Both the position numbers and the translations under genes were made by a program. Below, in pieces: positions 2,015 to 50,363 of a stretch of DNA of 50,363 bases. Below the pieces are notes generated by a model that was not told where the DNA came from, made no database searches, and was given only the letters and a program-made list of their open reading frames with translations. Position 1 is the stretch's first letter. Every line of letters begins with the position of its first letter. The stretch comes from a virus, in IMG/VR virus record IMGVR_UViG_3300025322_000030, positions 1 to 50,363 of that record. One strand, given 5' to 3'.

Positions 2015-2037
2015 GTTCAATCCAAAATTTATCGAAC
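2015..2037. promoter_or_regulatory. 23-bp dyad copy 1
   Basis: Arms GTTCAATC and ATCGAAC flank an A/T-rich centre. It fills the gap between two convergent genes and covers the stop codon of the giant gene. A site between converging genes does not fit a simple promoter role. Confidence 0.8.
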
Positions 2038-5000
2038 TTGTTCCTGCTCAGCTCTAAGCCGCTCAACTTCCCTGAAAAATTCAGGCCCTGCATAACCTCT
2101 TGCTCCAAGCACTACCGAAAGCTGTCTAGATAAGCTTTCCTTCTGCGCTTCAGTCTTGGCACGATCAAGCCTATCCAAATAATCCCTAGCTTTAGCCTCT
2201 GCAGGTTGGCTCCACATTCTGACCCAGGTAGCTCTGTTAGGTAAGTCCTTAATCTTGCTTATGAACTCAGCCCTACCAATCAATCTTTCCTGCTCAGCAA
2301 GTGTTGGAACCTTCTTCTTGTCATTAAGATGCTCCATAAGCTTGTCATTTGCACCCTTGACTCCGTACCAATAGTGAGCCTTTGAATAATAATCTATACT
2401 TCCTGAGTTTACAAAGTCGTTAAATTTAGTATCTTCAAGTATCTCACCTTGCTTCTCCATTATATCAGTGCCTGATTTGACTACTCTGATAAATCTTTTA
2501 ATTCCTGGCACCTTGGACAATATAAGTGCTAGGTGCTCCTCTTGCATTTCCTTCGGTATGTCACCAAAGGCTTCATCATAGCCAGCTCCAACTGCGTAAG
2601 TCCAGATATTGTCACCTAGAAGTGACCTCTTAACAGCCTCTAGTCTATCAGGTGATAGCTTAGTGACCTGACCTACATCTATTGCCATCTCAGACGTCCT
2701 ACCCTTAGTAAATTCCTCAGCACTCTTTGGCCAGCTAAATGTTTCTGGAGTTATATGTTTCCTTGTCCAGAAATCTATGTTAAGCATATACTCAAAGGCA
2801 GCTCTTTGCGCTGGAGGCAGTGACATAATATCGGGAGCTGCTTTAGTCAGCGATCCAAGTATTGCCTGGTAGTCTGGAGGTCTATCTATAACTCCAGTCT
2901 CATACATAAACTTCTGCGTCAGTCCCCTGAACAAGTTCTTGAAGAAAGCAGCTCCAGAATCAAGGGGGATGGTAAGAGCTAGCCCATTCTCCTGGCCAGC
3001 ACTATCTATGAATCTGAAGCTGTCAGGAAAAGGTATGACCAGGTTATTATCCTCCAAGTACTCAGGTATGTCATCACTAGTTTCTGGCGAATAAAGTTTG
3101 CTGGCAGCTACAACTAAAACAGTTGGTATTCCAACAGTCTGAACAACTCTAGCAATAGCCTGCTGAGGATTTTCGATCATAGATCTGCCAAACGATCTAA
3201 TGGCCTGGACTCCTGCACTAAGATAGATCAATCCAAGCTTGTCCAACATCTTTGTGAACCATCCACCTTGCTGGAAGTCAAGATAGTCCCTAGCAACAAA
3301 CACAGCCTCATCCATAACATCGTTGTTCTTTCTAGCTTCCTTAACACTAATACCAGCCTCAGCTGCTCTTTGTCTAACGACTCTCTCAGCAATTGCCATC
3401 CTAGTCCACATCTCAAGTGATTCAGATGCATACATAAAGAAGTTCTCAAGTGGAGCAAATCTTCCTGGGAGCTTATATCCAGTAACACTTGTTCTAGCTT
3501 GCGTAGAAAGGAATGGCATAAGCAGTCCACGTTCTGCAGCTCTCATATATTTCTCACGTTCTCCTGACTTATAATTTCTAAGAAATGTATCATAGAATGT
3601 ACTCTTAAAGTCTCTCCCTAGCTGCATGAAAAACACTGGAGGATGTGAACTATATATCTGCCCAAATTCTCCCTTCTTATATCTGCCAGCAGTTTGATGT
3701 GCGTGCATTATGTCTCTAGGCAAGTTAACAAACAGTGACCAGAGTGGAGCTGCACCAGTTAACATGGCCTTTGTTATTGGAGCTAAGGTTATATAATTAG
3801 CCCACCTAATAGCCCTTGGAGATATATCCTTACCAGCTGCTTCCAAGCCTCTTGCGAACTGAGAATCAAGATATAGAGTCTTTCTCTGTCCTCCAACTCT
3901 ATAGTTAAACTTTGTCCATAGCCTAGCATCAACAATCGGATCTTGGTCAGGATGAGCATCTTTCTTAGTAAGCTTAACTATAGAATTCTTAGGATTCCTA
4001 TAAGCCATGTCAGCTAGTTCAACAAAAGTCCTATTTCTAAAAGCCTGACCATATACTCTGTTGAATATCTCCAGGGCAACAAGTCTCTGATCGGTCTCAA
4101 GAATATCTGTCAGCCTACCTTTCTGAAGTGACTCTATTCCGGAGCTATTGACTGATCTAGCTCTACCACCTATAGTTACAGTCTCCTTCTCATCATATAG
4201 CAGTTCAATAGGAACTCCTTCACCTTTCTCCAATCTCTGCCCAATTCCTCTAAACTTAGCATAGTCATGCTTCCTAAGTCCATCAGCCATTTCACTACTG
4301 ATAATACCTTCCTGTTCCCTAACATCAACAAGTTTCTTCATCCATTCAAAGTATGCATCCCTTCTACGGATCATCCCAAGATCTTCACCTGGCTTTAAGT
4401 CCTCAAGTACACCAAACAAAGCTTCGTAAGTAGCTGAATTAGCTGGTGATTGACCTTCTGGAAACTTAACTCCAGCCTTATAGCTAGCTATGTCAGTAAC
4501 TCTTTTACCTCTAGTCAGTTTATTAAGAACACTAACTCCATTATTACTAAGTCCTCCAAACACTTCCTTATCAAACTGCATAAACATCTTCTGTCCATAA
4601 GCATGTCCACCAGATTCATTAATCATTTTCCATAGAACTCTGGTAGACTGTTCATCTAACTCACCAGCCTTTATGCCTTCAACTAGTGCTTTTCTAGCTC
4701 TGTGCTTGGTGTCCCAGATGCCCTCAGCAATTAGTTTCTTGCGCTCACCTAATGTCAGTTTCTTAGCTTCCTTAGACGCAGCCTCATCACGCTCAAATGC
4801 TTCCTTATAATCAAGGGCTTTCTCAACAACAGCTCTTTGCTCAGTGGTTAGTTTACCGAGGTCCGACCTTGTAACTTTCTGTGTTTTGCTTCTAGATAAT
4901 ATCTTCCTAACGACTTCAGCAGTTTTATCAAATGGAAAGCCAGCATATAACTTAGTGCCACTTTCATCATATACACTTCTTACCTTCAAAGGCTTATTCG

Positions 5001-8000
5001 ATACAATATCTCCCTCCTTAATCTCACCAGTGTATTCCACTTCTAATACGTAAGGCTTTGCAGATCTATTCGCATCATATATGACCTTAGCCTTTAGAGC
5101 AACACCAGAGGGATTTTTGTCAAGCGCTCCTAATGCAATAAGAGCATTATCATAGGCCTCTCCAGCAAATTTAGCATACTCTACAGCATCACCAAAATCT
5201 CTAGCCACAAATATTAGCTCATCCTTAAACGGTCTGCCTTCACCAGCCAATGACAATTTGAAATACTCATGATCGTATATTCTATCTTTAGCCCTATCTC
5301 TGGTAATACCAGTTAGATTAAGTTTATCTAATACATCTACAATTATCTGCTCAAGAGACCTTGGTTTTAGATATCCACCAACTATATTCTCTGGTTTAAC
5401 GTACTTAGAACTAGTTCCATGAAACACAGTGCGTAACTTATTTTTCCTTGTATCAGGAGGAAGTTCACTCATAGACTTAGCACCAGATTCAAAGTGGACT
5501 ATCACATGCTCACTTTTGAATTCCTCAGATGTTAGTGGTGGTATCTCTCTCCTCTCAGCCTCAGTTAATCTAACTCTAGCACCTACATCTCTAGCTTCTA
5601 TTTCACCTGCTAACATAGAGTAAGCATAGTAATTTAAACTTCCAGCATCTTTAATTATACCTCTAAGTACAGATTCTTCTTTATTAGTTAATATTTTATT
5701 TATTAGATCTAATTTACTTTCTATAGAGGATCTAACACGTCCTGCTTCTTCACTTATCCTAGCTATATCACCAAGATAAACTGTTACGGTACTTGATGCA
5801 AAAAAGTCATCAACTCCCAACAACTCATGAATCTCCTTTGCAACTAAATAATTATCATTCATTAGCTTACGAACTGTCTTTTGATCCTGAGAGGCAGCAG
5901 CAATAGAATTGAATAGTTCTCTGTCCTTCCTGATCAAGTCATCAAGCCTACTTGACTTACCAGGATCTGATCTAACCTCAGATAATAGTCTAATAATCTC
6001 GTTTAGCTTTCCAAATCTATACTTTTCAGTATCTATGATTTTGCCAGTCTCAGCCACCAATTTGTCTGCCAAGTCTACAATAATATCACCTTTGGCACTA
6101 TCTATAGCTTTACTGACAGTACCACCAGTAGCAAATCCTGACTTGAACTGTATATAATGCTGTAGCTCATGAACGACTGTGTTTAGCTTATCTTCAGCAT
6201 ATGGAGTTACAGTGAGTGTGTTAGTAACGTCATCATACCTGCCTTGTATCTGTTTAAGTAGGTCTGCTAGTATAGGAGGTCTCTCAATTCTGAATTTTAT
6301 ATCAGCAGCCTCAGGATGTGCCCTGAACAGATCTGGATAATCTATAAGATCACCTACTCTTATCTCATTTATAATACCTTTACTGGGAACAGTTTCAACT
6401 ATACTCTCAAGTGAAGTGTTGAACTTAAGCTTACTATCATCAATCTCAAATCTCCATTTACTATCATGAGGATTGAAGAAGAATCCAGTTCTTCTCCATA
6501 TACGATCAGCAGTAGTCTTTGACTCTGGAATGATCTTCCTTATACTTTCAAACAACTCTCTAACAATAGCAGGAGCCTTGGTTGGGTCTATAAACAGATT
6601 CAAGTTGCCCATTATATCTCGTGTGGCAGATTGATCAAATTTGGGCCGATCTGCTTTGCGAGCCCAGTCCGCAGCTTCTGATACAGATTCCTTCCATTGG
6701 TAGAATGATTCTGGATAACCCTCACCAACAAAGTGATATTTAAACTCATCAGCTCTAGCAGCTAACTCACTGAGGAAATCCCTAGTACCAATAATATCTA
6801 TCTTCTCACCATCTAACCACCTATTTACATCATTAACTAATTTCCAATAAGTAACTCCAGGGTCAGGAATCGGCCTGTCAGGTAACTGATTTAGCAAGTC
6901 ATCGACGCTGGTAGCTACAGACTTACTCTTTTCATACACAAGTTTCCTAGCAGCTGTCACATCTGACGTTTGCCGAAGTGGAGAGTTATCATCTGTTAAC
7001 TCAGGAAGTCTTGGAGCCTTAGTTTGTACATCAACTTCAGTAAGTGGCTCTTGTTCGGGTACCTTCTCCTCAAGCCCATAGAACTTATCTATCTCAGCTT
7101 CGGTCAATTCCTCAGCTTTTTTGCCGTAGAATTTTTCTATATCTGATTCAGCAGGTTCAACAACTTTTGGTTCGACCTTTGGTAGCTCAACCTTCGGAGC
7201 CTCACCCTCCAAAAATTTAGCTATATCTTGACTAGGTATGTCCTCAAAGTTTTTGCCAAAATATTTTTCAATCTCATTTATCTGCTTACTAGTAACAAGT
7301 ATTTCAGGCTCTACTGATACAGTTGGTTTTATCTCTGGTGCAGCAGGAAGTGCTTCTGGTTTTGCAGGCTCAGCCGTTGGTTCTGGTTCCACAACTTTAA
7401 CAGGTTCCTCAATCACTCCTCTTTTTCTAACAGCCTCTTTAGCAAGCTCAGTCATTCTCTTCTGAGCTTCTGTAGGTTCCTCAATTCCCTTAAAGGGCCC
7501 CTTAGCTAATGTCTCAGGCTTTTCAGGTTCAGTCTTTGGAGGAAGCTTAGCTTCTTCCTTAGCTTCAATGATCTTTCTAGTTTCAGCAATAAGCTCTTTC
7601 TTGGTAGGTCTCTTAGGCCTTGGCTGAGTCTGCTTAACATCCTTAAGTTCTTTACTCTTAACTTCTGTTTCCTGCTTAGATGCAATTGCATTCTCAGCAT
7701 CTTCAACAGCTTCCTTAGCTTTTAACTCATTTTCAATTCTCTGAGCTTTCAGTACTTCAATTTGAGCCTGTTTGATAGCTTCATCAGGTATTGTATTTAT
7801 CAGATCTTCTTTTTGCTTAATCTCAGCTCTTTTTAGAGTGACATCCTCTATGTCTTTAGTAAGCTTTCTAACCCTTCTGGCTGGCAAACCTCTCCATAAG
7901 AATAAGGCATCAAGACCTAAATCAAATATCACCTCTCCAACATCTCTATTAGTAAACTGATCAGGTCCAAGCTCAACAGCTCGTTGAGCGTTGAGACCTA

Positions 8001-10159: not shown

Positions 10160-10175
10160 CTTAACCTCCAAATGA

Positions 10176-10198
10176 GATTGATCAATTTTGAATTAAAC
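10176..10198. promoter_or_regulatory. 23-bp dyad copy 2
   Basis: Arms GATTGATC and AATTAAAC. It lies between two late genes and touches the stop codon of the upstream gene. Confidence 0.7.
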
Positions 10199-11061
10199 TA
10201 CCCAAACAAACCAGCAGCAAGTCCAAGAACACCTCCTATTCCAGCCCCCCACGGACCACCTACCATGGCTCCAGCAGAAGCACCCTGCATTGCACCTCCT
10301 ATGGCACGTGCAGCAGTCGATGCACCAGCAACAGTTGTCTTTGAGTCAACTGCACCCTGCAGCACACCAAGTGCTGCAGTGTTGAAGTGTAGTATTGTAA
10401 AAGGCCACAGTACATTCTTGACATGAATATCTATGTTATGACTATCTATATCAACCTTTGCTGTGATATAGAATTTCAGTATCTGTGCATACATCTCGAT
10501 CATATTCCTATTCCAATCAAGGTGAGTTCTCCAACGCTCAGTTACAAGTGGAAGTAACTTGCCTCGTATATCAGCACTGAACCTTGACAGAGCCTTCGTC
10601 CTAGCTACTTCCATCATTCCTCTAGCTACAACAAATGAGCTGCTCATAACTGAATTTATGTCTCTTAAACCAGTCTCAAGTCTGGGAGCTGCATTCTCTA
10701 TAATATCATCTTCGAGTATACCAGCTTCTGCTGAGACCAACTCCCTTACAACAGTTCCATCCACAGTATCACTAAATATCTGATCAAATAATACCTCAAC
10801 ATCAAGACCAGCCATAAACTTCCCATACATATCATAAAGTGATGGGAACGAGTCTAGAGCATATCCTATTCCAAAGAATGCATTTTCAATCTCTATATCC
10901 GTATAGTCCATGTATGGTCTGAAGTCACTGTTCTGAGCTGCAGGATCCCATAGAAGGAAATCTCTATGATCAGAATATGCTGTCAAAACCTCAGTATGCT
11001 CAGCTTCTATATATGGAGCATAGCGAATGGTGTTAGTCGTTCTCTCAGCTGCTCCTCCCAT
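10198..11061 (-). CDS. Probable membrane-active internal virion protein
   Basis: A 287-aa protein. The first 230 residues are mainly helical and hydrophilic. The last 50 residues are Gly/Ala-rich (repeated GGAM, GASAGAMVGG and GIGGVLGLAAG stretches), the kind of tail seen in phage ejection proteins that insert into the host membrane. The start is supported by GGAGGT 5 nt upstream. It follows the GNAT-like gene with a 1-nt gap and precedes the other ejection candidates. Confidence 0.55.
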   Translation of the reverse strand: MGGAAERTTNTIRYAPYIEAEHTEVLTAYSDHRDFLLWDPAAQNSDFRPYMDYTDIEIENAFFGIGYALDSFPSLYDMYGKFMAGLDVEVLFDQIFSDTVDGTVVRELVSAEAGILEDDIIENAAPRLETGLRDINSVMSSSFVVARGMMEVARTKALSRFSADIRGKLLPLVTERWRTHLDWNRNMIEMYAQILKFYITAKVDIDSHNIDIHVKNVLWPFTILHFNTAALGVLQGAVDSKTTVAGASTAARAIGGAMQGASAGAMVGGPWGAGIGGVLGLAAGLFG

Positions 11062-11497: not shown

Positions 11498-11499
11498 AA

Positions 11500-11522
11500 G
11501 TTTGACCCATTTTGGTTCGATC
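11500..11522. promoter_or_regulatory. 23-bp dyad copy 3
   Basis: Arms GTTTGACC and GTTCGATC. It fills the whole gap between two late genes and reaches to 2 nt before the downstream ATG. Confidence 0.8.
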
Positions 11523-12583
11523 TACTCAACAGACTCGAGGTAACTAAATCCATGGATTACTCCAGTTACGTTTATGTAGTCGAGTTCTAAGTACTCGTAA
11601 ATGTAAGATCTGATGTTGAACTTAAACTCAACTCCGTAGCAAGTAATATATGCTATTCCATTAGGATTAACAAGTGCCCATTTTGACTGGTTAAATCCAG
11701 CATCGTTGTATATTCTGGATTCGATCATAGCTTCAAGCTTGCCAGTTAGATCAGTTCCAATTTCTATCCACTTGATAGTCTTCGGTTTGCGAGTGCCAAG
11801 ATCATATATGTCAGTAGTTATGTCAAACTTTGGAATTTCTATTTCAGCAGGAGAAACAACATACAGGTCACCAGTCTGAGAATTTATATCTGTTACGTTA
11901 GCAGGCCCAAGACCAAGACTTCTATCCTTAGTACTATACACATAACCTTTTGTACCATCGCAGATATATAGTAACCCAAACTCTGGATCGAGTGATAGTT
12001 TAGGACATGATAGCTGAGATATGTACTCAGAGTAATCCAGCATCTGGAGTCCTTCGCCAGTTAGTCTAAGCAACCTGGATTTCTGATCTATAAAGTAATG
12101 CTCGTCATCAGTACCAGCTACCGCTGGTTTGCATATTACTCCTATACGATAAATAGTGCGCATTCCGTAGTGCACTCCAGATGGATTCAAAATTGATACA
12201 CCATTCTGGCCATATACAGCTACTGTATTACCAAGCTTTAATATCTGATATACAAAACCTTTCCAATCAAGTGGGCGCTCACCAGCCTCGATACTCTCGT
12301 CTATGGTAAAATCCAACCTACCAATCTTAGACCATTTAACCCAGTTGGCTCTACTTGGAGCCTCAACTACAGCTGCTATGTGAATCAGTGATACAATTAT
12401 ATCTATTCTTGCATTACCTATAAATACATCCTGAGCATAGTTTCCATGAACTGATACAGCTATATTTATAGGATCTGCAAAGTGAACGATGTTAAGTGTT
12501 TCACCGTGTACACTTACAACTATATCTATCGGAGATGCGTATATCCGAAGTATAGGCCAATTAACTATTACATCAGTAGTCAT
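11522..12583 (-). CDS. Tail protein, possible nozzle/beta-propeller type
   Basis: A 353-aa protein rich in predicted beta strands. Residues 16-66 contain three related segments of about 20 aa (SPIDIVVSVHG, DPINIAVSVHG, ARIDIIVSLIH). The middle shows propeller-like strands (GNTVAVYGQNGVSIL, HYFIDQKSRLLRL, GLLYICDGTKGYVYS), as in tail nozzle proteins of podoviruses. The start overlaps the upstream stop as TAATG. Function is inferred from strand pattern and position only. Confidence 0.5.
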   Translation of the reverse strand: MTTDVIVNWPILRIYASPIDIVVSVHGETLNIVHFADPINIAVSVHGNYAQDVFIGNARIDIIVSLIHIAAVVEAPSRANWVKWSKIGRLDFTIDESIEAGERPLDWKGFVYQILKLGNTVAVYGQNGVSILNPSGVHYGMRTIYRIGVICKPAVAGTDDEHYFIDQKSRLLRLTGEGLQMLDYSEYISQLSCPKLSLDPEFGLLYICDGTKGYVYSTKDRSLGLGPANVTDINSQTGDLYVVSPAEIEIPKFDITTDIYDLGTRKPKTIKWIEIGTDLTGKLEAMIESRIYNDAGFNQSKWALVNPNGIAYITCYGVEFKFNIRSYIYEYLELDYINVTGVIHGFSYLESVE

Positions 12584-15869: not shown

Positions 15870-15870
15870 A

Positions 15871-15893
15871 GTTCGAACCAAAATAAATCGAAC
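15871..15893. promoter_or_regulatory. 23-bp dyad copy 4
   Basis: Arms GTTCGAAC and ATCGAAC. It occupies the gap between two late genes; the downstream ATG begins 1 nt after it. Confidence 0.85.
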
Positions 15894-15895
15894 TT

Positions 15896-21898: not shown

Positions 21899-21904
21899 TT
21901 CATA

Positions 21905-21927
21905 GTCCGATCAAAAATGGTTCAATC
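21905..21927. promoter_or_regulatory. 23-bp dyad copy 5
   Basis: Arms GTCCGATC and GTTCAATC. It fills the gap between the small Ig-like gene and the portal gene, ending 6 nt before the portal ATG. Confidence 0.8.
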
Positions 21928-22269
21928 TCACCATGGCTCAGTTGTTGGACCAGGAGTTGTTGGAGGAGTGCTAGTTTCAGGTAATGGTTCGTAGACGTTG
22001 ATGTCAGCCCAGAGGCCGTGTAGTTCTACATCAGTATCCTCAACATGAGCTTGGACAACCCAAAGTCCTGGCATGTTTAAATCAGTTACAAGCAAATCAT
22101 AGATCATACGAGTTGAGTCTGCAGGATCTATAGATGCAGTCCAGTAACCAGTTGTTCTGTTAGGACGCTTGAACTTTATTATGAGAGTAGCATACACACT
22201 CAAATCAATTCCAGTGTTTACAACTAATCTCGGAGTATCACCTACAAAGGTTTTATCTGCAGAGGCCAA
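21928..22269 (-). CDS. Small beta-sandwich-like protein with PTT tail
   Basis: About 113 aa. The pattern (VGDTPRLVVNTGIDLS, LIIKFKRPN, MPGLWVVQAHVED) resembles the small immunoglobulin-like or BppU-type domains of phage baseplates and fibres. The C-terminus is a Thr/Pro tail (TPPTTPGPTTEP) related to the repeats of the neighbouring gene, whose end it overlaps. The TTG at 22269 is chosen because AGGAG lies 7 nt upstream. Confidence 0.5.
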   Translation of the reverse strand: MASADKTFVGDTPRLVVNTGIDLSVYATLIIKFKRPNRTTGYWTASIDPADSTRMIYDLLVTDLNMPGLWVVQAHVEDTDVELHGLWADINVYEPLPETSTPPTTPGPTTEPW

Positions 22270-31172: not shown

Positions 31173-31179
31173 TTTGAAA

Positions 31180-31202
31180 GTACGATCAATTTTGGTTCGA
31201 TC
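31180..31202. promoter_or_regulatory. 23-bp dyad copy 8
   Basis: Arms GTACGATC and GTTCGATC. It lies in the divergent region between the late (minus) and early (plus) modules, upstream of the candidate late promoter. Confidence 0.8.
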
Positions 31203-31401
31203 TATTACTAAACCTTTAGTTGCATCTCCTCAACTACTCTCTCACAAACCACTCAATTGTCCGTACCAAGATCAATCCATTTCAATTCGTTGACCACAAT
31301 CCTACGAGCATTGTACATTTTAGTTTGATTGGAAGAAGTGTGGGAGAGCTAACCCCGCGCCGTACGTCATACGTCTCCCCCATGCCCTCGAAACAAATCC
31401 C
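31203..31401. other. Non-coding divergent spacer
   Basis: No gene is seen here. It contains one possible plus-strand promoter (TTGACC at 31290, TACATT at 31314, 18 bp apart) and an isolated half-dyad near 31323. GC content rises sharply after about 31350, where the moron-like segment begins. Confidence 0.5.
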
Positions 31402-32207: not shown

Positions 32208-32222
32208 TTATGTAGTTCCATA

Positions 32223-32245
32223 GTTCGATTTATTTTGGATTGAAC
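32223..32245. promoter_or_regulatory. 23-bp dyad copy 9
   Basis: Arms GTTCGATT and GATTGAAC. It marks the left edge of the AT-rich, iteron-containing region. Confidence 0.8.
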
Positions 32246-32269
32246 TTTTGCTTCTATTATATAGATAGT

Positions 32270-32309
32270 GTGAGTTGTTCGTAGTGTTGTGAGTTGTTAG
32301 TGAGTAGTT
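32270..32309. repeat. Iteron-like direct repeats
   Basis: GTGAGTTGTT at 32270-32279 and 32289-32298, then GTGAGTAGTT at 32300-32309. The first two are 19 bp apart centre to centre, close to two helical turns. They could bind an initiator or regulator. Confidence 0.5.
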
Positions 32310-32336
32310 ATATTGTGTGTCTATAATAATTGTACA

Positions 32337-32366
32337 TTGACATATTAACGACACTCATGTTAATAT
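32337..32366 (+). promoter_or_regulatory. Candidate promoter in AT-rich region
   Basis: TTGACA and TAATAT separated by 18 bp. The inverted repeat ATTAACGA/TCGTTAAT overlaps the spacer and -10, so a bound protein could block it. Confidence 0.55.
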
Positions 32367-32373
32367 CGTTAAT
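32344..32373. repeat. Inverted repeat over promoter
   Basis: Exact 8-bp arms ATTAACGA and TCGTTAAT with a 14-bp spacer, unrelated to the 23-bp dyad family. Confidence 0.7.
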
Positions 32374-32524
32374 AACGAAAATGTGTGAGTGCCATTATGT
32401 ATTATTATATATATATATCTATATATAGGAGAGTAGTGTGTGGTGTGTGTTGGGTGGTGGGATAAGGCACTAACACATTATGGTTAATGTTGGTTATTTG
32501 GTATGGATCAATCTGTCATTAATA

Positions 32525-32547
32525 GATCGAACCATTTTGGATTGAAC
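32525..32547. promoter_or_regulatory. 23-bp dyad copy 10, upstream of early promoter
   Basis: Arms GATCGAAC and GATTGAAC. Its right end is exactly 18 bp from the -35 of the next promoter. Confidence 0.85.
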
Positions 32548-32565
32548 TGGTAATTTGTGAAGTGC

Positions 32566-32595
32566 TTGACAACTGGGTGTAAGTTGTGTTATGAT
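32566..32595 (+). promoter_or_regulatory. Early promoter A
   Basis: TTGACA and TATGAT with an 18-bp spacer. The 18 bp between dyad and -35 (TGGTAATT...AAGTGC) are conserved with promoter B at 33820. An ATG lies 8 nt after the -10, so a transcript could start at or next to it. Confidence 0.8.
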
Positions 32596-33771: not shown

Positions 33772-33778
33772 GTTGATA

Positions 33779-33801
33779 GTTCGATCGAAAATGGTTCGAA
33801 C
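33779..33801. promoter_or_regulatory. 23-bp dyad copy 11, upstream of early promoter
   Basis: Arms GTTCGATC and GTTCGAAC; among the closest copies to the consensus. Its right end is exactly 18 bp from the -35 at 33820. Confidence 0.9.
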
Positions 33802-33819
33802 TGATAATTCACAAAGTTC

Positions 33820-33849
33820 TTGACATCCAACGTACAGTTGTGATACAAT
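33820..33849 (+). promoter_or_regulatory. Early promoter B
   Basis: TTGACA and TACAAT with an 18-bp spacer. The dyad-to--35 segment (TGATAATT...AAGTTC) and part of the spacer (AGTTGTG) match promoter A. The ATG pair at 33856/33859 falls at the expected transcription start. Confidence 0.8.
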
Positions 33850-42610: not shown

Positions 42611-43441
42611 ATGCCCTACGACTTCAAATCAGAGCTAGCTCGAGTCAGGAAGTACTACGAAGGTGATCCACTTCAGAAAAGATTCAGTGCTCTTGTTTGT
42701 GGTGGTATAGGATCAGGTAAGTCATATCTGCTAAGAACGGCTCGCAGACCCGTTCATGTAGACTCATTTGATCCAGGAGGAACAAAATGTAATCTGCCAC
42801 TCATTAAAAGTGGGGATATGGTAGCTGATACCAGATGGGAGACTGAGGATCCTTACTTTCCTGATAAGTTTGCAGCGTGGATGAAAGTTACAAACATAAG
42901 ATTGGAGATGGGATATTTTAATCACTTTGGAACCTATTGCCTAGATAGTGCAACAACTTGGGGAGAGGCAGTGATGAACTATCGCCTGGCTGGTGAAGGC
43001 AGAGCTGGTGAAGCCCCAAAGTGGGCACATGACTATGTGCCACAGAAGACTTACATGGTTAACTACATTAGAAAGCTAATGAGATTACCATGTGACTTCA
43101 TACTGACTGGGCATTTACGTGAGATTGAGGAAATTATCAGCGTAGATACAAAGACTGGAGTAACGAGAAAGAGTATCGAATATAGATTTTATACAGTCGG
43201 TCAAGCTGTCCTGACCATCCCGCTCTTATTCGACGAGATTTATGTACTCCTCGGAAAGGAGGGTAAAGATGGAGTAGAACGTAAAATGCTCATTGATGCA
43301 CAAGGTAAATACATAGCTAGGTCAAGACTTAGGGCTAATGGAAAACTTGATTCAGTAGAAGCACCTAACATCAAAGCCCTACTCAAAAAGATTGGCCTGT
43401 CGTGGGAAGATAAACCTAAACTTGAAATGGAGGTGAAATGA
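42611..43441 (+). CDS. Sak4-like RecA-fold ATPase
   Basis: A 276-aa P-loop ATPase with Walker A GGIGSGKS (31-38) and a Walker B-like FILTGH segment. Size, HVDSFDPGG motif and position match the phage Sak4/AAA_24 recombinases, which promote single-strand annealing together with an SSB. The SSB gene lies 0.3 kb downstream. The ATG at 42611 follows the upstream stop by 1 nt and has AAAGGA about 9 nt before it. Confidence 0.75.
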   Translation: MPYDFKSELARVRKYYEGDPLQKRFSALVCGGIGSGKSYLLRTARRPVHVDSFDPGGTKCNLPLIKSGDMVADTRWETEDPYFPDKFAAWMKVTNIRLEMGYFNHFGTYCLDSATTWGEAVMNYRLAGEGRAGEAPKWAHDYVPQKTYMVNYIRKLMRLPCDFILTGHLREIEEIISVDTKTGVTRKSIEYRFYTVGQAVLTIPLLFDEIYVLLGKEGKDGVERKMLIDAQGKYIARSRLRANGKLDSVEAPNIKALLKKIGLSWEDKPKLEMEVK

Positions 43442-43731
43442 ATAAAGAAGAAGTAAAAGAGTTGATATCAACAAAGGATATACTACAAGCTACCTCAGAA
43501 GAGTTGAAAGAGATACATATGAGGTTGGCTAAGTTGGAGAGTAAACTAAACAGATACGACAGAATATTCGAGTCAGCTTTTAGAGAAGAGGCAGAATCCA
43601 GGTTGCATCTTGGATCACTGCATGGACATGAACAAGCAGATAAAGCATACAGAGCTAGTAGTCTAGAGATGTTAAGAATGAAATTAGAAAGGAAGGTGAT
43701 GCCTGGAACACTAATACCTGTTGACAAATAG
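43438..43731 (+). CDS. Coiled-coil protein, unknown
   Basis: A 97-aa protein of mostly charged coiled coil (SEELKEIHMRLAKLESKLNRYD). GGAGG lies 5 nt before the ATG, which overlaps the ATPase stop. Perhaps a partner of the recombination genes. Confidence 0.5.
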   Translation: MNKEEVKELISTKDILQATSEELKEIHMRLAKLESKLNRYDRIFESAFREEAESRLHLGSLHGHEQADKAYRASSLEMLRMKLERKVMPGTLIPVDK

Positions 43732-43753
43732 TCCGAACCAAAATAAATCAATC
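43731..43753. promoter_or_regulatory. 23-bp dyad copy 15
   Basis: Arms GTCCGAAC and AATCAATC. It lies in the gap before the SSB gene, ahead of its ribosome site. Confidence 0.75.
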
Positions 43754-43773
43754 TTTCCAAAAAGGAGAGACAA

Positions 43774-44247: not shown

Positions 44248-44256
44248 GCCCTTGAG

Positions 44257-44311
44257 TGCCGGTGTCCTCTTGATACCATCGGTAGGTGAGGCGAAGGCTA
44301 TCGAGCCGGCA
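44257..44311 (+). ncRNA. Three-way-junction RNA candidate after SSB
   Basis: TGCCGG pairs with CCGGCA to close the element. Inside are a short hairpin (TGTC/GATA, loop CTCTT) and a 7-bp hairpin (TCGGTAG/CTATCGA) with a 12-nt loop. It lies in the 110-bp gap after the SSB gene and is GC-rich. No T-run follows, so it is not a simple terminator. Confidence 0.4.
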
Positions 44312-44320
44312 ATTAAACAA

Positions 44321-44343
44321 GTTCGTTCCAAAATTGATCGAAC
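44321..44343. promoter_or_regulatory. 23-bp dyad copy 16
   Basis: Arms GTTCGTTC and GATCGAAC. It ends just before the ribosome site of the next gene. Confidence 0.8.
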
Positions 44344-44357
44344 TAAAGAGGAAAGAT

Positions 44358-44537
44358 ATGGATTACTCAGTCATAATACTTTCAGTTGCTATAATATTAT
44401 TAGCTATAAGTGTATGTGCTTTAGATAGAAAAATACGAGCTCTAAATGACATATGCATGAGTCATTTATGTCAATCAGCGGATAAGCCTGATGACAAAGG
44501 AAAAGACAATGGACTACAAGATTATCAGTGTAAATAG
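44358..44537 (+). CDS. Small membrane-anchored protein
   Basis: A 59-aa protein with an N-terminal membrane segment (VIILSVAIILLAISVCAL) and a polar C-terminus. AGAGG lies 8 nt before the ATG. Function unknown. Confidence 0.55.
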   Translation: MDYSVIILSVAIILLAISVCALDRKIRALNDICMSHLCQSADKPDDKGKDNGLQDYQCK

Positions 44538-44754
44538 AAGAACTTATCCAAAGCAACTTGGAAGTACTGATGAGTGGGATTACTCACCTCCAACAATTGT
44601 AACTGTGTTAGTCCTTGGTAACGTAGGTGACTACGCAGCATACATAGGTATAGGATCTCCAGAATGGATTGCGAGGTTTGGAGCTAAACTCATGTTTGAA
44701 GAAGCTAAAATTCACTTTCCAACTATAGAAAGAGAAAAGTACAGAGGTTACTGA
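44509..44754 (+). CDS. Small alpha/beta protein, unknown
   Basis: An 81-aa protein with strands around TIVTVLVLGNVGDYAAYIG. The ATG at 44509 has AAAGGA about 7 nt upstream; one at 44491 would add 6 residues. Its last base is shared with the next start. Confidence 0.5.
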   Translation: MDYKIISVNRRTYPKQLGSTDEWDYSPPTIVTVLVLGNVGDYAAYIGIGSPEWIARFGAKLMFEEAKIHFPTIEREKYRGY

Positions 44755-45887
44755 TGAACATTCTAGTTCTAGGCTACGACGGTTACATAGGCTGGCCACT
44801 TACACTTGAGCTACTCAAAGATGGACACATTGTTAGTGGAATAGATAATGGATCTAGAAGGTTTAGAGTAACTGAGTGTGGAAGTCAGTCACTGACACCT
44901 ATACTTACAAGAGCTAGCAGATGGACCTACCTGAGAGATAATTTCGATAAGGTTCATCTTCTGATAGATAACAACATCTCACACATGAGTGAGCAGTTAA
45001 AATATATCTTTGAAAACTATAGCATAGACGTTATATTCCATCTAGCCGAGCAGCCATCTGCACCCTGGTCAATGGCTAATTTCCATCGGGCCAATAAGAC
45101 CCAGATAGAGAACGTATCCGGTACACTTGCTCTACTTTGGGCCATGAAAGAAGCATGTCCAAAAGCTCACCTAATCAAAATAGGTACAATGGGCGAGTAT
45201 GGTACACCTAATTGTGACATCCCTGAAGGTAGAATAGAAGAAGGTCCAATGGCTGGACTTCTATTTCCTCGTACTGCAGGCTCGTTCTACCACCTCTCCA
45301 AGGTCCACGATACTCACAACATTGAGTTTGCTTGTCGTAACTGGGGACTTCGTTCGACTGACATAATGCAAGGAGTTGTATTTGGATTGAATGAAACTGA
45401 CAATGATGCAGAGTTGACCAGGTTTGATTATGATGAGTACTTTGGAACTGTCATAAACAGATTCTGTGTCCAGGCTATCATAGGCCATCCACTCACAGTA
45501 TATGGCTATGGAGGCCAAACAAGAGGGTTCATACCACTGAGAGACTCAATCAAGTGTCTGAAAATAGCGATGGATAATCCTCCTGTGAAGGGTGAGTATA
45601 GAACATTTAATCAGTTCGAGAGTATTCATACTATTAACGAGCTAGCTTATATGGTTAGGGATGCACTTCACACTCTCAACATGCCATACAGGATAGATCA
45701 CATACCTAATCCACGTAAGGAATCAGAAGATCATTACTATAATCCAAGGCATTTGGGTCTGGCTAAGTTTGGCTACAGCCCATCTATATCCATACACAGG
45801 GATATATACGAACTAATCAAAAAAATTCTACCATACAAGGACAGAGTAATCAAAGAAGTAATCATGCCAAAGACTACATGGAAATAG
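44754..45887 (+). CDS. UDP-sulfoquinovose synthase homologue (SQD1/SqdB-like)
   Basis: A 377-aa short-chain dehydrogenase-type sugar enzyme. NAD site GYDGYIG is at 7-13. The match to SQD1 is extensive: SLTPI, EQPSAPWSM, GTMGEYGTP (Thr145), SFYHLSKVHDTHN (Tyr179, Lys183), NRFCVQ with GHPLTVYG, GGQTRGF, and HYYNPRH. The catalytic Thr, Tyr and Lys are all present. SQD1 makes UDP-sulfoquinovose from UDP-glucose and sulfite, the precursor of sulfolipids and of some glycans. It is embedded in the early region. Whether this copy is used for virion or host-surface sugars is inference. Confidence 0.85.
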   Translation: MNILVLGYDGYIGWPLTLELLKDGHIVSGIDNGSRRFRVTECGSQSLTPILTRASRWTYLRDNFDKVHLLIDNNISHMSEQLKYIFENYSIDVIFHLAEQPSAPWSMANFHRANKTQIENVSGTLALLWAMKEACPKAHLIKIGTMGEYGTPNCDIPEGRIEEGPMAGLLFPRTAGSFYHLSKVHDTHNIEFACRNWGLRSTDIMQGVVFGLNETDNDAELTRFDYDEYFGTVINRFCVQAIIGHPLTVYGYGGQTRGFIPLRDSIKCLKIAMDNPPVKGEYRTFNQFESIHTINELAYMVRDALHTLNMPYRIDHIPNPRKESEDHYYNPRHLGLAKFGYSPSISIHRDIYELIKKILPYKDRVIKEVIMPKTTWK

Positions 45888-45889
45888 CT

Positions 45890-46075
45890 ATGTATAAAAT
45901 AAGATTTAAGTATTTCTGCTCATCCTGTGGCATAACCTGGTATAGTATGGAAGATGCACCTCATGCCAGAATATGTATAGAGTGTCAGACTGATAAGCAC
46001 ACAGAGTATAGAGAAATAACAGAACACGACGACATACCGGCTAGTATAAATCCACTTACAAATGGAAGTGAATAA
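45890..46075 (+). CDS. Small Zn-ribbon protein
   Basis: A 61-aa protein with CSSCG and CIEC pairs. The start is uncertain: ATG at 45890 or 45878, neither with a strong ribosome site. It overlaps the next start by the stop codon. Confidence 0.5.
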   Translation: MYKIRFKYFCSSCGITWYSMEDAPHARICIECQTDKHTEYREITEHDDIPASINPLTNGSE

Positions 46076-46329
46076 TGTCATCTATAGATTACAAACCTAG
46101 ATTAGTAATTGAGATTACTGAAGAGCAGAAGAAAAGAGCTGACAGGCTAATAGGCCAGTATGGTCTAAGAAAAGCTGTATTTGGGCCAGTCTTGGACGAC
46201 GTACTTGATTTGATAGAGGAGTACGGTGGTGTGGCTATAGGTATTATGATTAGTGGTAAGGTCAAACCAAGGGATATCATTCCAATCTTACGTAGGGCTG
46301 AGGAGGTAGGCAATGGCGAATCTAGATGA
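46075..46329 (+). CDS. Possible ribbon-helix-helix protein
   Basis: An 84-aa protein. LVIEITEEQKKRADRLI followed by a turn and FGPVLDDVLDLIEEYG gives the strand-helix-helix form of RHH regulators. It could be a DNA-binding factor; the C-terminal half differs from known families. Confidence 0.45.
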   Translation: MSSIDYKPRLVIEITEEQKKRADRLIGQYGLRKAVFGPVLDDVLDLIEEYGGVAIGIMISGKVKPRDIIPILRRAEEVGNGESR

Positions 46330-46528
46330 TCTTGGAATTGTGTCAATCTCTGACATGCAGACAGATGAGGCACTGGAGCTTCTTCGTCAGATAAGATTAT
46401 CTAGAAGAATTCCAACTGGTAAGACTAAAACCAAATCACAGACAAAGAAGCAATCCAAATCAGCACTAAACATCAGCTCAGAACAAGCAGCTGAGATACT
46501 AAAACTCATAACTGGAGAAGACAAATGA
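46313..46528 (+). CDS. Small basic protein, unknown
   Basis: A 71-aa protein with a Lys/Thr/Gln-rich middle (GKTKTKSQTKKQSKS). It overlaps both neighbours. Confidence 0.5.
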   Translation: MANLDDLGIVSISDMQTDEALELLRQIRLSRRIPTGKTKTKSQTKKQSKSALNISSEQAAEILKLITGEDK

Positions 46529-46758
46529 CTACATTTAGTATACACTTGAACGAGAGAGAATTAGTAAGCTTGATAAAGTTCTTGATGTGTCTATCTGATG
46601 AAACAGTAGGCACATTTACATACTTCACTAAAGGAAAGGCACTCAGGGTTCACTTCAGAGGAGACAATAAAAAGGTGCAAAAGCAGATATGTGAATGGCT
46701 AAGTATTCCTGAGAGAAAACAGAACTTTATGGGAGCTAAGGATGATAAAAGTCGGTGA
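46525..46758 (+). CDS. Small protein, unknown
   Basis: A 77-aa alpha/beta protein (TTFSIHLNERELVSLIKFL). The start overlaps the previous stop as ATGA, and its end overlaps the ParB-methyltransferase gene. Confidence 0.5.
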   Translation: MTTFSIHLNERELVSLIKFLMCLSDETVGTFTYFTKGKALRVHFRGDNKKVQKQICEWLSIPERKQNFMGAKDDKSR

Positions 46759-48061
46759 AGTGGCTATGATCCCAACGTCGTCAATAGTTGTTGATGATGA
46801 CAGAGCTAGAAAGATAATGGGAGACCTGGATGGGCTAGAAACTAACATGAAAGAATCAGGACTAATCTCTCCATTAGCTGTAAAATATAACAGTGATGGG
46901 AGTTACAAACTCCTGGCTGGCGAACGTAGATATATTGTACTCAAGCGTAATAATGTAGAAAGCATACCAGTTAGAATATATACTGAGGATCTAACTGATC
47001 TCGAGATGAAGATTATAGAGAAGTCTGAAAACTTCTTTCGCAAGGACATGGAATACTGGGAGTTTGACAAGCTAACTCTCGAGATCCATCAAATGCAGCA
47101 GGAGCTGCATGGAGCTAAGACTCCAGGACCTACAAGCGTAGGTTGGGGGACTAGAGATACTGCAGAGATGTTATCCAGTAGTCAGCCCGCTGTAGTTGAA
47201 TCTGTGAAACGAGCTCAGGCTAGAGAAGCATTCCCAGATCTGTTTGACAATTGTAAGACTGCAAGTGATGCCAGTAAGATACTGAAGAAGATAGATGAAG
47301 CTGCTGTTAGGCAGGTTATAGCACAAAGGCTGGAAGCTCAGTCATCTGAAGGCACCATCCATGACTTAGCTAAGAGATTTATAGTGAAAGACTTCTTCAA
47401 AGGTATTAGGGAAGTCCCTGATGGAATAATTCACTTAGTGGAAATAGATCCACCATATGCTATAAACTTGGCTCATCAAAGAAAGAAGGACGGTGAGTCA
47501 CAGTATCAGCTAGAAGACTACAATGATATAGATCAAGACTCATATCCATCATTTTTGGATCGAACTTTGAAGGAATGTTATAGGGTGATGACTGAGCACT
47601 CATGGCTAATTATCTGGTTCGCGCCAGAACCCTGGTTCGATGAAGTATATAAGGCACTAAACAGCGCAGGATTTAGCACGACTAGAATGGTAGGCGTATG
47701 GACGAAAGGTGTGCCTGGGCAGAGTATGAATCCCTCAATCAGACTAGCCAACAGCTACGAAATGTTCTTCTACGCATGGAAAGGTCAGCCTGCACTAAAC
47801 AAAGCTGGCAGAAGCAACGAGTTTCATTTCTCACCAGTTCCATCTAATCAAAAGACCCATCCAACAGAGAGACCAATAGAGCTAATGAAGGAGGTATATG
47901 ATACTTTTGCGTTCCAAGGATCTCGAGTGCTAATTCCTTTTCTTGGATCTGGAAATGGAATACTCGCATCCCAGCAGCTTGGAATGTCAGCTTTTGGATT
48001 TGAGCTTAGTAAGTCGTATAAGGATTCATTCTTAGTCAAAGTACACTTAATGAGAGGATAA
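46742..48061 (+). CDS. ParB-like / DNA methyltransferase fusion
   Basis: A 439-aa protein. Residues 1-110 are a ParB/Srx-like domain (GLISPLAVKY, AGERRY at 59-64, then a KSENFFRKD segment). A helix-turn-helix-like part follows near 135-155 (TAEMLSSSQPAVVESV). Residues 200-439 are an N4/N6 methyltransferase of beta order: catalytic DPPY at 236-239 precedes the SAM motif FLGSGNG at 400-406. It would methylate an adenine or cytosine in a sequence chosen in part by the ParB/HTH region. No restriction enzyme partner was seen, so it is an orphan, perhaps protective or regulatory. Near its middle lies a weak dyad half-site (47543). Confidence 0.8.
   Translation: MIKVGEVAMIPTSSIVVDDDRARKIMGDLDGLETNMKESGLISPLAVKYNSDGSYKLLAGERRYIVLKRNNVESIPVRIYTEDLTDLEMKIIEKSENFFRKDMEYWEFDKLTLEIHQMQQELHGAKTPGPTSVGWGTRDTAEMLSSSQPAVVESVKRAQAREAFPDLFDNCKTASDASKILKKIDEAAVRQVIAQRLEAQSSEGTIHDLAKRFIVKDFFKGIREVPDGIIHLVEIDPPYAINLAHQRKKDGESQYQLEDYNDIDQDSYPSFLDRTLKECYRVMTEHSWLIIWFAPEPWFDEVYKALNSAGFSTTRMVGVWTKGVPGQSMNPSIRLANSYEMFFYAWKGQPALNKAGRSNEFHFSPVPSNQKTHPTERPIELMKEVYDTFAFQGSRVLIPFLGSGNGILASQQLGMSAFGFELSKSYKDSFLVKVHLMRG
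47543..47565. promoter_or_regulatory. Half-site resembling the 23-bp dyad
   Basis: Only the right arm GATCGAAC is intact. It may be coincidence. Confidence 0.25.
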
Positions 48062-48063
48062 TT

Positions 48064-48198
48064 ATGGAAAACTATTCCGCTGTATATGCACTTGGAGGAG
48101 TAGTAGTTGGATGGCTACTCTATTGGCTAACAGTATTTGTAACATCGGAGATAGGATATAGGATCAGAGAGAGACGATATAGAAATGGTAAATTCTAG
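48064..48198 (+). CDS. Small single-span membrane protein
   Basis: A 44-aa protein with one membrane segment (GGVVVGWLLYWLTVFV) and a basic C-terminus (RIRERRYRNGK). The ATG follows the methyltransferase stop by 2 nt, within AGAGGATAATT. It sits directly before the DNA polymerase. A membrane-anchoring or lysis-related role is possible. Confidence 0.5.
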   Translation: MENYSAVYALGGVVVGWLLYWLTVFVTSEIGYRIRERRYRNGKF

Positions 48199-48204
48199 CT
48201 CAAT

Positions 48205-50363
48205 ATGAAACGCACCTTCGTTCCACCATCAGGCAACAAATCTGCAAAGCTAGCTTTGTGTGGCGAGCAGCCTGGCAAAGATGAGATCATGGCTCGTCCA
48301 CCTCAGCCTTTTGTCGGACCTGCAGGTAAGGGCCTGAATGAGTGTCTGGCTGTAACCAAGACACTTCGTAGAGATTTATATCTAACAAATGTAATAAAGG
48401 ACTTGGATCACCCACTTTCATATTACATAGATATAAATCAACGAGGTAGGCATACGATTAGTCAGGAGGGCTATCAGTACATCCAGGAGTTAGCTGAAGA
48501 ACTCAAACAGATCAGGCCTAATTGTGTGGTAGCTCTTGGCAACGTAGCGCTGTTGGCACTGACAAATCGAATAGGAATTACCAAGTGGAGAGGATCAGTT
48601 CTTGAATCAACTGTTGTACCAGGACTTAAGGTTGTTCCTACATTTCATCCAGCTACATTCATACCACCGAAGTTTAACTTTCTCAATAAACCACTGATAT
48701 GTGAGGATTTAGAAAGGGCCAAACATGAAAGTGAGTTTCCTGAAATCAGACGTTTAGCTAGAAACATAATAGTTCGACCCAATTTTGATCAGACTGTTGA
48801 TATACTAAACTATTGCTATGAAGTTGGATTAAGGGGTCAAACTATTGGATTTGACTTAGAGCTTATAGGCGGAGAAGTAGACTGCTTCTCTGTTGGGTGG
48901 TCATCTATAGATTCGATAAGTGTTCCATTAAGAGGACCTCAAGGAGATTACTTTAACCCAGAGGAAGAGTTAGAGATAATGCTACTGTTGGCTAAGATAG
49001 TCCAGGAGCCAAGAATATCCAAAGCTGGAGCCAATGTAATCTTTGATACACAAGTGCTATTTCACAAGTACGGTATCCGACCAAGAGGTAAGATTCACTG
49101 CACACAAATAGCCCAGAAAATATCCTATCCAGATTTCTCAGTCGGACTAGACTTTGTTACTGCAATGTACACAGACATTCCATACTACAAACAAGATGGT
49201 AAGCAGTGGATGAAAATGCAAGCTGGTACCTGGGAGCAGTGGTGGAACTACAATGGAATGGACTCTATAGTACCAGCCGATGTAATTCCAGAGCAGCTCC
49301 AGGCACTTGCTAAACAGCAGAATGAGGAAACCTATGAGAGAAAACTAAGGCTCATGGAACCTCTCATTTATATGTCTGAGAGAGGAATTAGAGTTGATGT
49401 TCAAGGAATGATGGAATATAGGGAGAAACAGCAAACTGAACTTGATAGACTCTCTGAGGAACTAAACAGAGAAGTTGGATATGAAATTAATTTCAACTCA
49501 CCAAAGCAGTTAATGAATTACTTTTATAATGAAACAGGGATTAAGCCATACAAGAAGAGGAATACCAAGAATGAATATGTAGACACAACAGACGTGGACG
49601 CGCTTAAGCGTATCTCAAGAAGAGGTGGACCTGGAAGTCAGGCAGCCAAGCTACTGCTTGATATAAGGTCACTCAGTAAACGAATATCAACTTACTTAAA
49701 CATAGGAAAGGTGGATATAGATGGACGATACAAAAGTTCATACAAGCCGGTCGGAGCTGATACTGGACGACTCTCATCTGGAGAAACTATCTTCGGTACT
49801 GGAGGAAATCAGCAAAATTGGCCTCATGACCTACTCAGATTCTTTCTCTTTGACGAGGGATATATCGGATACTCGCTTGACCTTAGCCAAATCGAAAACA
49901 GAATTGTTGCCCACGTCGGAGGAGTAATAACGCAGATAGAGGCATTCGAGCAAGGTATAGATCTACATAAACTGACTGCTGGTGTGATACTTGATAAGTC
50001 GTATGATCAAATATCTGATGAGGATAGTTCCTCAGACATAGGCGACGGTAGACATAGTGAACGCTTCTGGGGAAAGAAAGGTAATCATGCTATAAACTAC
50101 GATGTTCAATACAAGACATTTGCACTGAAGAATGAACTTCAAGAAGGCGAGGCTAAGTATATACTTGAGAAGATTCACAGGGGATATCCGCAAATTAGGG
50201 ATGGCTACCACGTAACTATTCAGAATATGCTGAAGAAGAATAGAACTATTACAAACCTGTTTGGCCGTAGCAGATTATTCCTCGGTCCTATATTCCAATC
50301 CTATCCAAATGTGCCTAAGAGTGCATGTGAAGCTACATATAGAGAAGCTTATGCTCAGTTAGC
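48205..50363 (+). CDS. Uracil-DNA glycosylase-like / DNA polymerase I fusion (N-terminal part, split by the window edge)
   Basis: Replicative family A DNA polymerase; with the piece at 16-528 it totals 848 aa. Residues 1-180 look like a family 4/5 uracil-DNA glycosylase: GEQPG at 20-24, PFVGPAG at 35-41, then TNV and an HPATF motif. A 3'-5' exonuclease region follows with a DLE motif (GFDLE). The polymerase domain has motif A (DLSQIE, Asp559) and motif B ending in INY. By alignment Tyr632 takes the place of E. coli Phe762, a substitution reported to be common in virulent phages. It follows a small membrane protein gene and overlaps the MazG-like gene downstream. One 23-bp dyad lies inside the gene at 48772. 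The ATG at 48205 is the first start after the upstream stop; no strong ribosome site is visible. Confidence 0.93.
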   Translation, partial: MKRTFVPPSGNKSAKLALCGEQPGKDEIMARPPQPFVGPAGKGLNECLAVTKTLRRDLYLTNVIKDLDHPLSYYIDINQRGRHTISQEGYQYIQELAEELKQIRPNCVVALGNVALLALTNRIGITKWRGSVLESTVVPGLKVVPTFHPATFIPPKFNFLNKPLICEDLERAKHESEFPEIRRLARNIIVRPNFDQTVDILNYCYEVGLRGQTIGFDLELIGGEVDCFSVGWSSIDSISVPLRGPQGDYFNPEEELEIMLLLAKIVQEPRISKAGANVIFDTQVLFHKYGIRPRGKIHCTQIAQKISYPDFSVGLDFVTAMYTDIPYYKQDGKQWMKMQAGTWEQWWNYNGMDSIVPADVIPEQLQALAKQQNEETYERKLRLMEPLIYMSERGIRVDVQGMMEYREKQQTELDRLSEELNREVGYEINFNSPKQLMNYFYNETGIKPYKKRNTKNEYVDTTDVDALKRISRRGGPGSQAAKLLLDIRSLSKRISTYLNIGKVDIDGRYKSSYKPVGADTGRLSSGETIFGTGGNQQNWPHDLLRFFLFDEGYIGYSLDLSQIENRIVAHVGGVITQIEAFEQGIDLHKLTAGVILDKSYDQISDEDSSSDIGDGRHSERFWGKKGNHAINYDVQYKTFALKNELQEGEAKYILEKIHRGYPQIRDGYHVTIQNMLKKNRTITNLFGRSRLFLGPIFQSYPNVPKSACEATYREAYAQL
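48772..48794. promoter_or_regulatory. 23-bp dyad copy 17 (inside polymerase gene)
   Basis: Arms GTTCGACC and GATCAGAC. It lies within the coding region between the glycosylase-like and exonuclease domains. Confidence 0.6.
50238..50363 (+). repeat. Terminal overlap, right copy
   Basis: Exact copy of 15-140. It joins the two halves of the DNA polymerase gene in frame: codon 679 begins at 50239, which corresponds to 16. Confidence 0.9.

Follow-up and report, generated by a model that had tools for sequence, protein, structure and literature searches.

We analysed a 50,363-nucleotide stretch of phage DNA, the whole of which we refer to as the window (IMG/VR virus record IMGVR_UViG_3300025322_000030, positions 1 to 50,363), which carries a dispersed palindrome and a gene for a ParB–methyltransferase fusion protein (Table 1). 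The structural arm lies on the minus strand and encodes a terminase, a portal, a major head protein and a 2319-amino-acid protein. The replication arm lies on the plus strand and encodes a RecB-like nuclease, Sak4, an SSB-like protein, the ParB–methyltransferase fusion, PolA and a DUF3987 primase. The PolA frame (726 amino acids) remains open across the contig end, from 48050-50363 into 1-528, which would fit a genome that is circular or circularly permuted. Among named phages, Desulfofustis phage LS06-2018-MD01 is the nearest, with a major head protein 51% identical; Vibrio, Microcystis, Caulobacter, Roseobacter and Pseudomonas phages are further off. The analysis described below suggests that the palindromes serve the virus in recognising its own DNA and marking it chemically.

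A first-pass annotation, made from the window alone, had described 17 copies of a 23-bp palindrome and read them as a dispersed operator bound by a dimeric protein. We found every one of these copies where it had been placed. The fixed, symmetric core stands; all 17 copies, however, have an A directly before the 23-mer and a T directly after it, so the real element is 25 bp long, with the consensus A-GTTYGAWC-NAWWWTN-GWTCRAAC-T. Searching for GTTCGAWC-N7-GWTCGAAC with up to three mismatches gave 15 matches in the window against 0.39 expected (100 shuffles, maximum 2). The 17 copies scored 22-30 bits with a symmetric matrix (21-29.5 bits on leave-one-out), and the same matrix reached at best 14.4 bits, and mostly less than 10, on 12 dinucleotide shuffles. 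A matrix scan against shuffled controls had been set beforehand as a test that could refute the motif, and the copies lie far beyond chance. At least one further good copy, absent from the first-pass annotation, was present; it falls within the gene for the 2319-amino-acid protein. Several sites sit so close to the gene before them that they include its stop codon, such as TAG at 37901-37903 and at 43729-43731. Mismatches between the arms had been said not to favour RNA pairing, and this holds over 27 genomes: on the presumed transcript strand, A-C breaks (368) exceed G-U pairs (244), and an RNA hairpin or terminator was rejected. The first-pass annotation was correct in describing a dispersed site that acts at the level of DNA and is suited to a dimeric protein.

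Related phages provided a second such test, and they too carry sites, in some cases at matching positions. We wrote a de novo palindrome search for this analysis, using dinucleotide shuffles as controls, and applied it to 26 relatives at a length of 25 bp. All were positive, with 10-24 copies each and differing arms (left halves include AGWTCGTTYAAAW, AGWTRATTAAATS, AGATRWATAAAWW and nCTTYGTTTWWTW), and their motifs scored 370-820 compared with 130-240 for the best shuffle motif. In four genomes a coding repeat ranked above the palindrome, and the next high-scoring motif, the palindrome, was used. The Desulfofustis phage, whose homologue of the window fusion is WBK39746.1, has nine copies of RCTWWGTCCCAAnTTGGGACWWAGY. 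Each of 18 further contigs of at least 33 kb also has a dispersed palindrome, in three of them a 26-bp form. Altogether, 46 contigs of 25 kb or more encode the ParB–methyltransferase of this family, and all 46 have a dispersed 25- or 26-bp palindrome of lineage-specific sequence, with 8-24 copies per phage; A/T bases at the dyad are retained in nearly all motif versions. Most of the contigs compared come from metagenomes, and their sequences may not be complete. Below 20 kb, some pieces (L055, L014 and L017 among them) yielded no motif that passed the threshold, probably through lack of power, although true absence is possible. We found no dispersed palindromes of 14-33 bp in the Vibrio, Microcystis, 119X and Tiera phages, and none of 23-27 bp in Kuura and CRP-810. 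We found no description of these sites in the open PubMed Central literature.

The 26-bp version, found in G036, G042 and G028:C111 (L354-L356, L370-L371 and L385-L387), has one base added at the dyad and goes with a distinct helix-turn-helix (HTH) subgroup (SIVxDIML). The 26-bp palindromes of G042 and G028 were first detected with a relative's matrix, and the palindrome of G043 needed more permissive seeds.

Judged from its sequence and predicted structure, the fusion protein is a ParB_N fold with nucleotide-binding boxes, followed by an HTH that would read the palindrome and by a methyltransferase fold of the DPPY-before-FxGxG order. Profiles matched the N-terminal part to Noc, Spo0J, ParB and KorB and the C-terminal part to CcrM/MboII-type enzymes. 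A Foldseek search with the AlphaFold model agreed, with methyltransferase matches to CcrM, RsrI, MboIIA and HpyAVI. The G60-x-R62-R63 and E96-N97-x-x-R100 boxes (GxRR and ENxxR) are conserved in 58-59 of 59 proteins. DPPY at 236-239 precedes FLGSG at 400, and the catalytic residues are conserved in 57-59 of the 59. The HTH was not recognised by Pfam; in the AlphaFold model it comprises helices 137-143 and 148-163, so that residue 148 opens the recognition helix.

To identify the protein that reads the sites, we compared every variable column of ten shared proteins (2,558 columns) with every motif position across 59 phages. This column-level analysis was needed because whole-protein against motif distances (a Mantel-like comparison) were dominated by phylogeny and hence uninformative. 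Residue 148 of the fusion explained motif position 7 with an adjusted R2 of 0.88, compared with 0.38 for the next best column of any protein and a maximum of 0.48 in 60 permutations. The same residue was also the top column for position 6 (0.72), and residues 147, 149, 152 and 153 of the fusion turned up for positions 8, 9 and 12. Since the permutations ignore relatedness, the weight is carried by the phage tree and by contigs held out of the fit. On a PolA+Sak4 tree of 54 phages, the five with Gln148 all have A7, which none of the 49 others has; the five with His or Arg at 148 all have G7, and all remaining residues go with T7. Asp or Asn at residue 148 accompanies A6. The five Gln148 lineages are scattered on the tree, and a strict independent-pairs test gave four concordant and no discordant pairs, too few for significance alone. 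Contigs outside the fit agreed: L261 (a sixth Gln lineage) combines Gln with A7, G043 combines Arg with G7, L264 and L263 have Lys with GTT, and L333 has Pro with GTT. Beyond the phages used in the fit the rule does not hold strictly: position 7 is a mixture of A and T in some phages with Ile or Pro (G040 and L272).

The chemistry of this rule has a precedent. In Caulobacter ParB, R173 reads a guanine, and its Gln counterpart in Noc reads an adenine (PMC7383237). By our own alignment on the conserved HTH pattern, residue 148 would occupy the position of R173; profile alignments do not reliably extend over the recognition helix. The base read by Gln lies one position further in than position 1 of parS and the Noc-binding site (NBS), so the correspondence is one of residue and chemistry and not of exact base position.

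A natural knock-out points the same way. G027 (32,354 bases; PolA 73% identical to that of G005) lacks only the ParB–methyltransferase gene between its 46313-like gene and PolA, and retains the genes for the ribbon-helix-helix (RHH)-like, 46313-like, SSB-like, Sak4, PolA and primase proteins. Dispersed palindromes are absent from this contig, in which none of the relatives' matrices gives three or more matches. This single case counts against the RHH-like protein and for the ParB–methyltransferase. The first-pass annotation had listed RHH-like, TerS-like and ParB-like proteins as candidate binders; the covariation of residue 148 with motif bases 6-7 singles out the last of these, encoded from 46742, and G027 favours it as well. 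On these sequence comparisons, the fusion protein is well supported as the reader of the palindromes.

The other candidates fared less well. We had ourselves at first favoured the RHH-like protein encoded at 46075-46329 because of its co-occurrence with the motif: it is present in almost every motif-bearing phage, accompanying the palindrome in all 27 first genomes and the Desulfofustis phage, and its model is small and helix-rich, consistent with RHH. We now consider it a most improbable binder, given that G027 has the protein and neither palindromes nor ParB–methyltransferase, that its columns do not track motif positions 6-9 and that an RHH fold has no confirming match in Pfam, PHROG or PDB. 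Foldseek with this 84-amino-acid protein returned no match. The TerS-like protein (30531) does not track the motif and is missing or unseen in many phages, and the Desulfofustis phage, like many motif carriers, lacks a second RHH-like protein (33286); both proteins were rejected. The 46075 product has an Arc-like sequence pattern with no database match, and its gene forms a small pair with that at 46313-46528 (84 and 71 amino acids), present in all 27 first genomes and the Desulfofustis phage.

We then considered where the sites lie. In all of the first 27 genomes, sites were spaced more evenly than randomly placed ones would be (Stouffer z = -9.0), and the result was unchanged when the null positions were sampled from actual gene junctions (z = -9.03). 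The 14 additional genomes tested all showed the same regularity (z = -5.66), for a total of 41 of 41. Sites come approximately every 2.5 kb over the phage genome, and the regularity covers both arms and the interior of giant genes. Across the first 27 genomes, 82% of all sequence is no more than 1.5 kb from a site, compared with 70% at random. These genomes hold 462 sites, 357 at junctions and 105 in coding sequence. The gene for the 2319-amino-acid protein has internal sites in 18 of 24 relatives. In 21 genomes a site lies within the gene at 40303, and 20 of these share its codon position and reading frame. The peptide over this site is mostly K-F-V-Q-K-L-N-D/E-L; in the window, where the motif has GAWC for GTTY, it is K-F-E-Q-N-L-I-E-L, and the protein thus follows the motif. 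Selection here is acting on the DNA. The 40303-40623 product is a small, fast-evolving protein with a zinc-finger-like start.

This placement does not support an operator system in the sense of stoperators or P1 C1 sites, as first proposed: few sites are linked to promoters, the spacing is regular over both arms and in giant genes, and no integrase was found. Specifically, we detected no tyrosine integrase (PF00589) among the 21 genomes searched. Mycobacteriophage L5 stoperators resemble the present sites in being short, numerous (more than 20 over the phage genome) and often placed in short intergenic gaps. Unlike them, L5 stoperators are 13 bp long, asymmetric, oriented with transcription and bound by the monomeric repressor of temperate phages (PMC9283540); the sites described here are symmetric with a dimer-type reader, and lysogeny genes were not found. 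The phages of the pink-berry study, which include Desulfofustis phages, are predicted to be strictly lytic and carry orphan methyltransferases (PMC10370329).

Regulation of another kind, modelled on KorB, would have the clamp load, slide and silence or time phage transcription, with a separate or secondary job for the methyltransferase. KorB of plasmid RK2 is a ParB relative and CTPase clamp that uses OB operators on a small replicon at a distance, sliding up to 1.5 kb to promoters (PMC11790492). Strong sigma70 promoters are approximately threefold enriched within 60 bp of the phage sites (47 pairs for 460 sites, 16.8 expected) and start 1-60 bp downstream of the site in 39 of the 47 pairs; sites 32524 and 33778 stand at identical spacing from two strong promoters. 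The enrichment is partly expected because both elements lie in intergenic gaps, and 47 pairs account for few of the sites. KorB is a repressor that works with KorA and has no methyltransferase, whereas the phage sites are not tied to promoters, a KorA-like partner was not identified, and the sites run regularly over both arms and within genes, including a gene of several kilobases in 18 genomes. We regard KorB-like regulation as an unlikely account of the system. The two site–promoter modules (32524-32595 and 33778-33849) share one layout (site, 17 bp, TTGACA, 18 bp, TATGAT or TACAAT, with TG before the -10 element) and are alike between site and -35 element, as if duplicated.

Even spacing would also fit a role in genome organisation or segregation, in which the sites condense, partition or compartmentalise phage DNA and methylation is secondary. 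ParB proteins are known to bridge and condense DNA around parS. Against this, no ParA family ATPase (PF13614), as ParABS partition would call for, was found in 19 genomes (controls positive in 14 of 14), there is no integrase and no evidence of a plasmid state, and the catalytic residues of the methyltransferase are conserved. Such a role seems to us highly unlikely.

Our preferred reading, which we hold with slightly better than even confidence, is that the palindromes are parS-like loading sites for a ParB clamp gated by cytidine triphosphate (CTP) that brings the methyltransferase over the phage's own genome. We count the absence of integrase and ParA as support for it. In the proposed mechanism, a dimer would recognise both arms of the palindrome with its pair of HTHs, a step well supported by the covariation. 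Binding of a nucleoside triphosphate, CTP or another, at ParB_N would turn the dimer into a closed clamp, which would move off the site and slide along the DNA, as ParB, Noc and KorB do; here clamp closure and sliding are predicted from the conserved boxes of the CTPase fold. The beta-class N6/N4 methyltransferase fused to the clamp would next act on the phage DNA around it and modify it, as the conserved catalytic residues suggest. Regular spacing would keep approximately 80% of the genome within 1.5 kb of a loading site, a distance similar to that over which KorB slides. Since the site sequence varies from phage to phage more than the methyltransferase does, marking would be selective for self DNA, and its most plausible purpose would be to protect the phage from host restriction. 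The fuller version of this idea, to which we give an even chance, is self-marking by a methyltransferase clamp that slides outward from evenly spaced, phage-specific sites and would modify the phage's own genome throughout and no other DNA, with specificity placed in the loading site instead of the methylated sequence and diversifying as a self/non-self code.

A simpler use of the same protein would be methylation at the sites only, with the ParB–HTH part acting as a target-recognition domain and the marks serving replication, packaging or regulation. A single chain that joins DNA binding to a methyltransferase would suit this, as would the A/T retained at the dyad. However, the full DPPY-FxGxG region (236-400), where target recognition of beta-class enzymes normally lies, is kept, the conserved NTPase boxes would be unneeded, and the even spacing and the sites internal to genes would have no obvious role. 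We consider site-only methylation rather improbable.

Several observations weigh against the clamp-and-methylate reading. In the part of a 2025 survey of ParB-CTPase folds drawn on here, ParB–methyltransferase fusions are not reported to bind CTP, and bacterial fusions of ParB to S-adenosylmethionine-dependent methyltransferases bound ATP (PMC12704722), so the nucleotide may not be CTP. Microcystis phage Mel-JY34 (25% identical) and Vibrio phage ABTNL-3 have a remote ParB–methyltransferase and no such palindrome. The identical spacing of two early sites upstream of strong promoters makes some regulatory role possible, and even spacing would suit genome organisation or long-range silencing equally well.

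The system shares features with several known ones. Like ParB–parS and Noc–NBS, it has a ParB_N domain followed by an HTH, a palindromic site and specificity set by the residue that opens the recognition helix (R173/Q173 in Caulobacter numbering; PMC7383237). The commonest phage arm, G6-T7-T8, is also similar to parS, whose GTT lies roughly as far from the dyad. It differs from ParB–parS in that the sites are 25-26 bp long instead of 16 bp, that 8-24 of them are spread evenly over approximately 50 kb, that one phage family holds many specificities, that ParA is absent and that a methyltransferase replaces the usual C-terminal part. Orphan phage DNA methyltransferases are likewise beta-class N6/N4 enzymes, usually read as anti-restriction; here, by contrast, the enzyme is fused to a site-specific ParB-type loading module with cognate sites across the genome. 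A further precedent is the architecture of phage ParB-CTPase/N6_N4 methyltransferase fusions in the 2025 survey, which is that of the window protein. The part of the survey considered here describes them as phage-enriched and guesses at an anti-defence role (PMC12704722), leaving targets and purpose open; DNA sites, specificity and mechanism are not given there.

Such fusions were already known, and what we add is their target sites, the reader and a natural one-residue recognition table across approximately 60 phages, so that their function can be put to direct test. Should the clamp model prove true, the phages would have a new means of confining a modifying enzyme to a single DNA molecule. 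Their naturally distinct ParB-type specificities would also make a library for labelling DNA and engineering proteins.

Table 1. Positions in the window of the palindromic sites and of the ParB–methyltransferase fusion with its parts.
Feature	Coordinates	Strand	Evidence or context
Fusion of ParB_N, HTH and N6/N4 DNA methyltransferase, 439 amino acids	46742-48061	+	Pfam ParB_N and N6_N4_Mtase; profiles; AlphaFold/Foldseek; covariation; natural absence
ParB_N (CTPase-fold) domain	46757-47020	+	3.5e-12
HTH, residues 137-163, recognition helix from 148	47150-47230	+	AlphaFold; covariation
Codon of Gln148, putative specificity residue (Q with A7 in the window phage)	47183-47185	+	Covariation
Beta-class N6-adenine/N4-cytosine methyltransferase domain	47429-48028	+	Pfam 1.3e-16; Foldseek
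Site 1, 25 bp	2014-2038	.	Junction of the two convergent arms, primase / 2319-amino-acid gene
Additional site	6628-6652	.	Inside 2319-amino-acid gene; 23.8 bits
Site 2, 25 bp	10175-10199	.	Matrix
Site 3, 25 bp	11499-11523	.	Overlaps stop codon of next minus-strand gene
Site 4, 25 bp	15870-15894	.	Matrix
Site 5, 25 bp	21904-21928	.	Matrix
Site 6, 25 bp	25816-25840	.	First codons of gene 25246-25845(-)
Site 7, 25 bp	28922-28946	.	Coding sequence of 28886-29947(-)
Site 8, 25 bp	31179-31203	.	Upstream of TerS-like gene
Site 9, 25 bp	32222-32246	.	Matrix
Site 10, 25 bp	32524-32548	.	17 bp upstream of TTGACA-18-TATGAT promoter 32566-32595
Site 11, 25 bp, best copy	33778-33802	.	17 bp upstream of TTGACA-18-TACAAT promoter 33820-33849
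Site 12, 25 bp	35974-35998	.	Matrix
Site 13, 25 bp	37902-37926	.	Overlaps TAG stop of ligase-like gene
Marginal copy, possibly chance	40122-40146	.	In HIRAN-domain gene; 19.4 bits
Site 14, 25 bp	40481-40505	.	Inside gene 40303-40623, conserved codon position
Site 15, 25 bp	43730-43754	.	Overlaps TAG stop of 43438-43731
Site 16, 25 bp	44320-44344	.	Matrix
Marginal copy, possibly chance	47542-47566	.	Inside ParB–methyltransferase gene; 16.9 bits
Site 17, 25 bp	48771-48795	.	Inside DNA polymerase reading frame

Two other features of the window were observed. Between the two arms, positions 32250-32460 are non-coding, AT- and GT-rich and contain TA runs, possibly an origin or promoter region. Within the replication operon, positions 44754-45887 encode a sugar-epimerase-like protein with an NAD-dependent epimerase pattern, which is present in 17 of 27 genomes.

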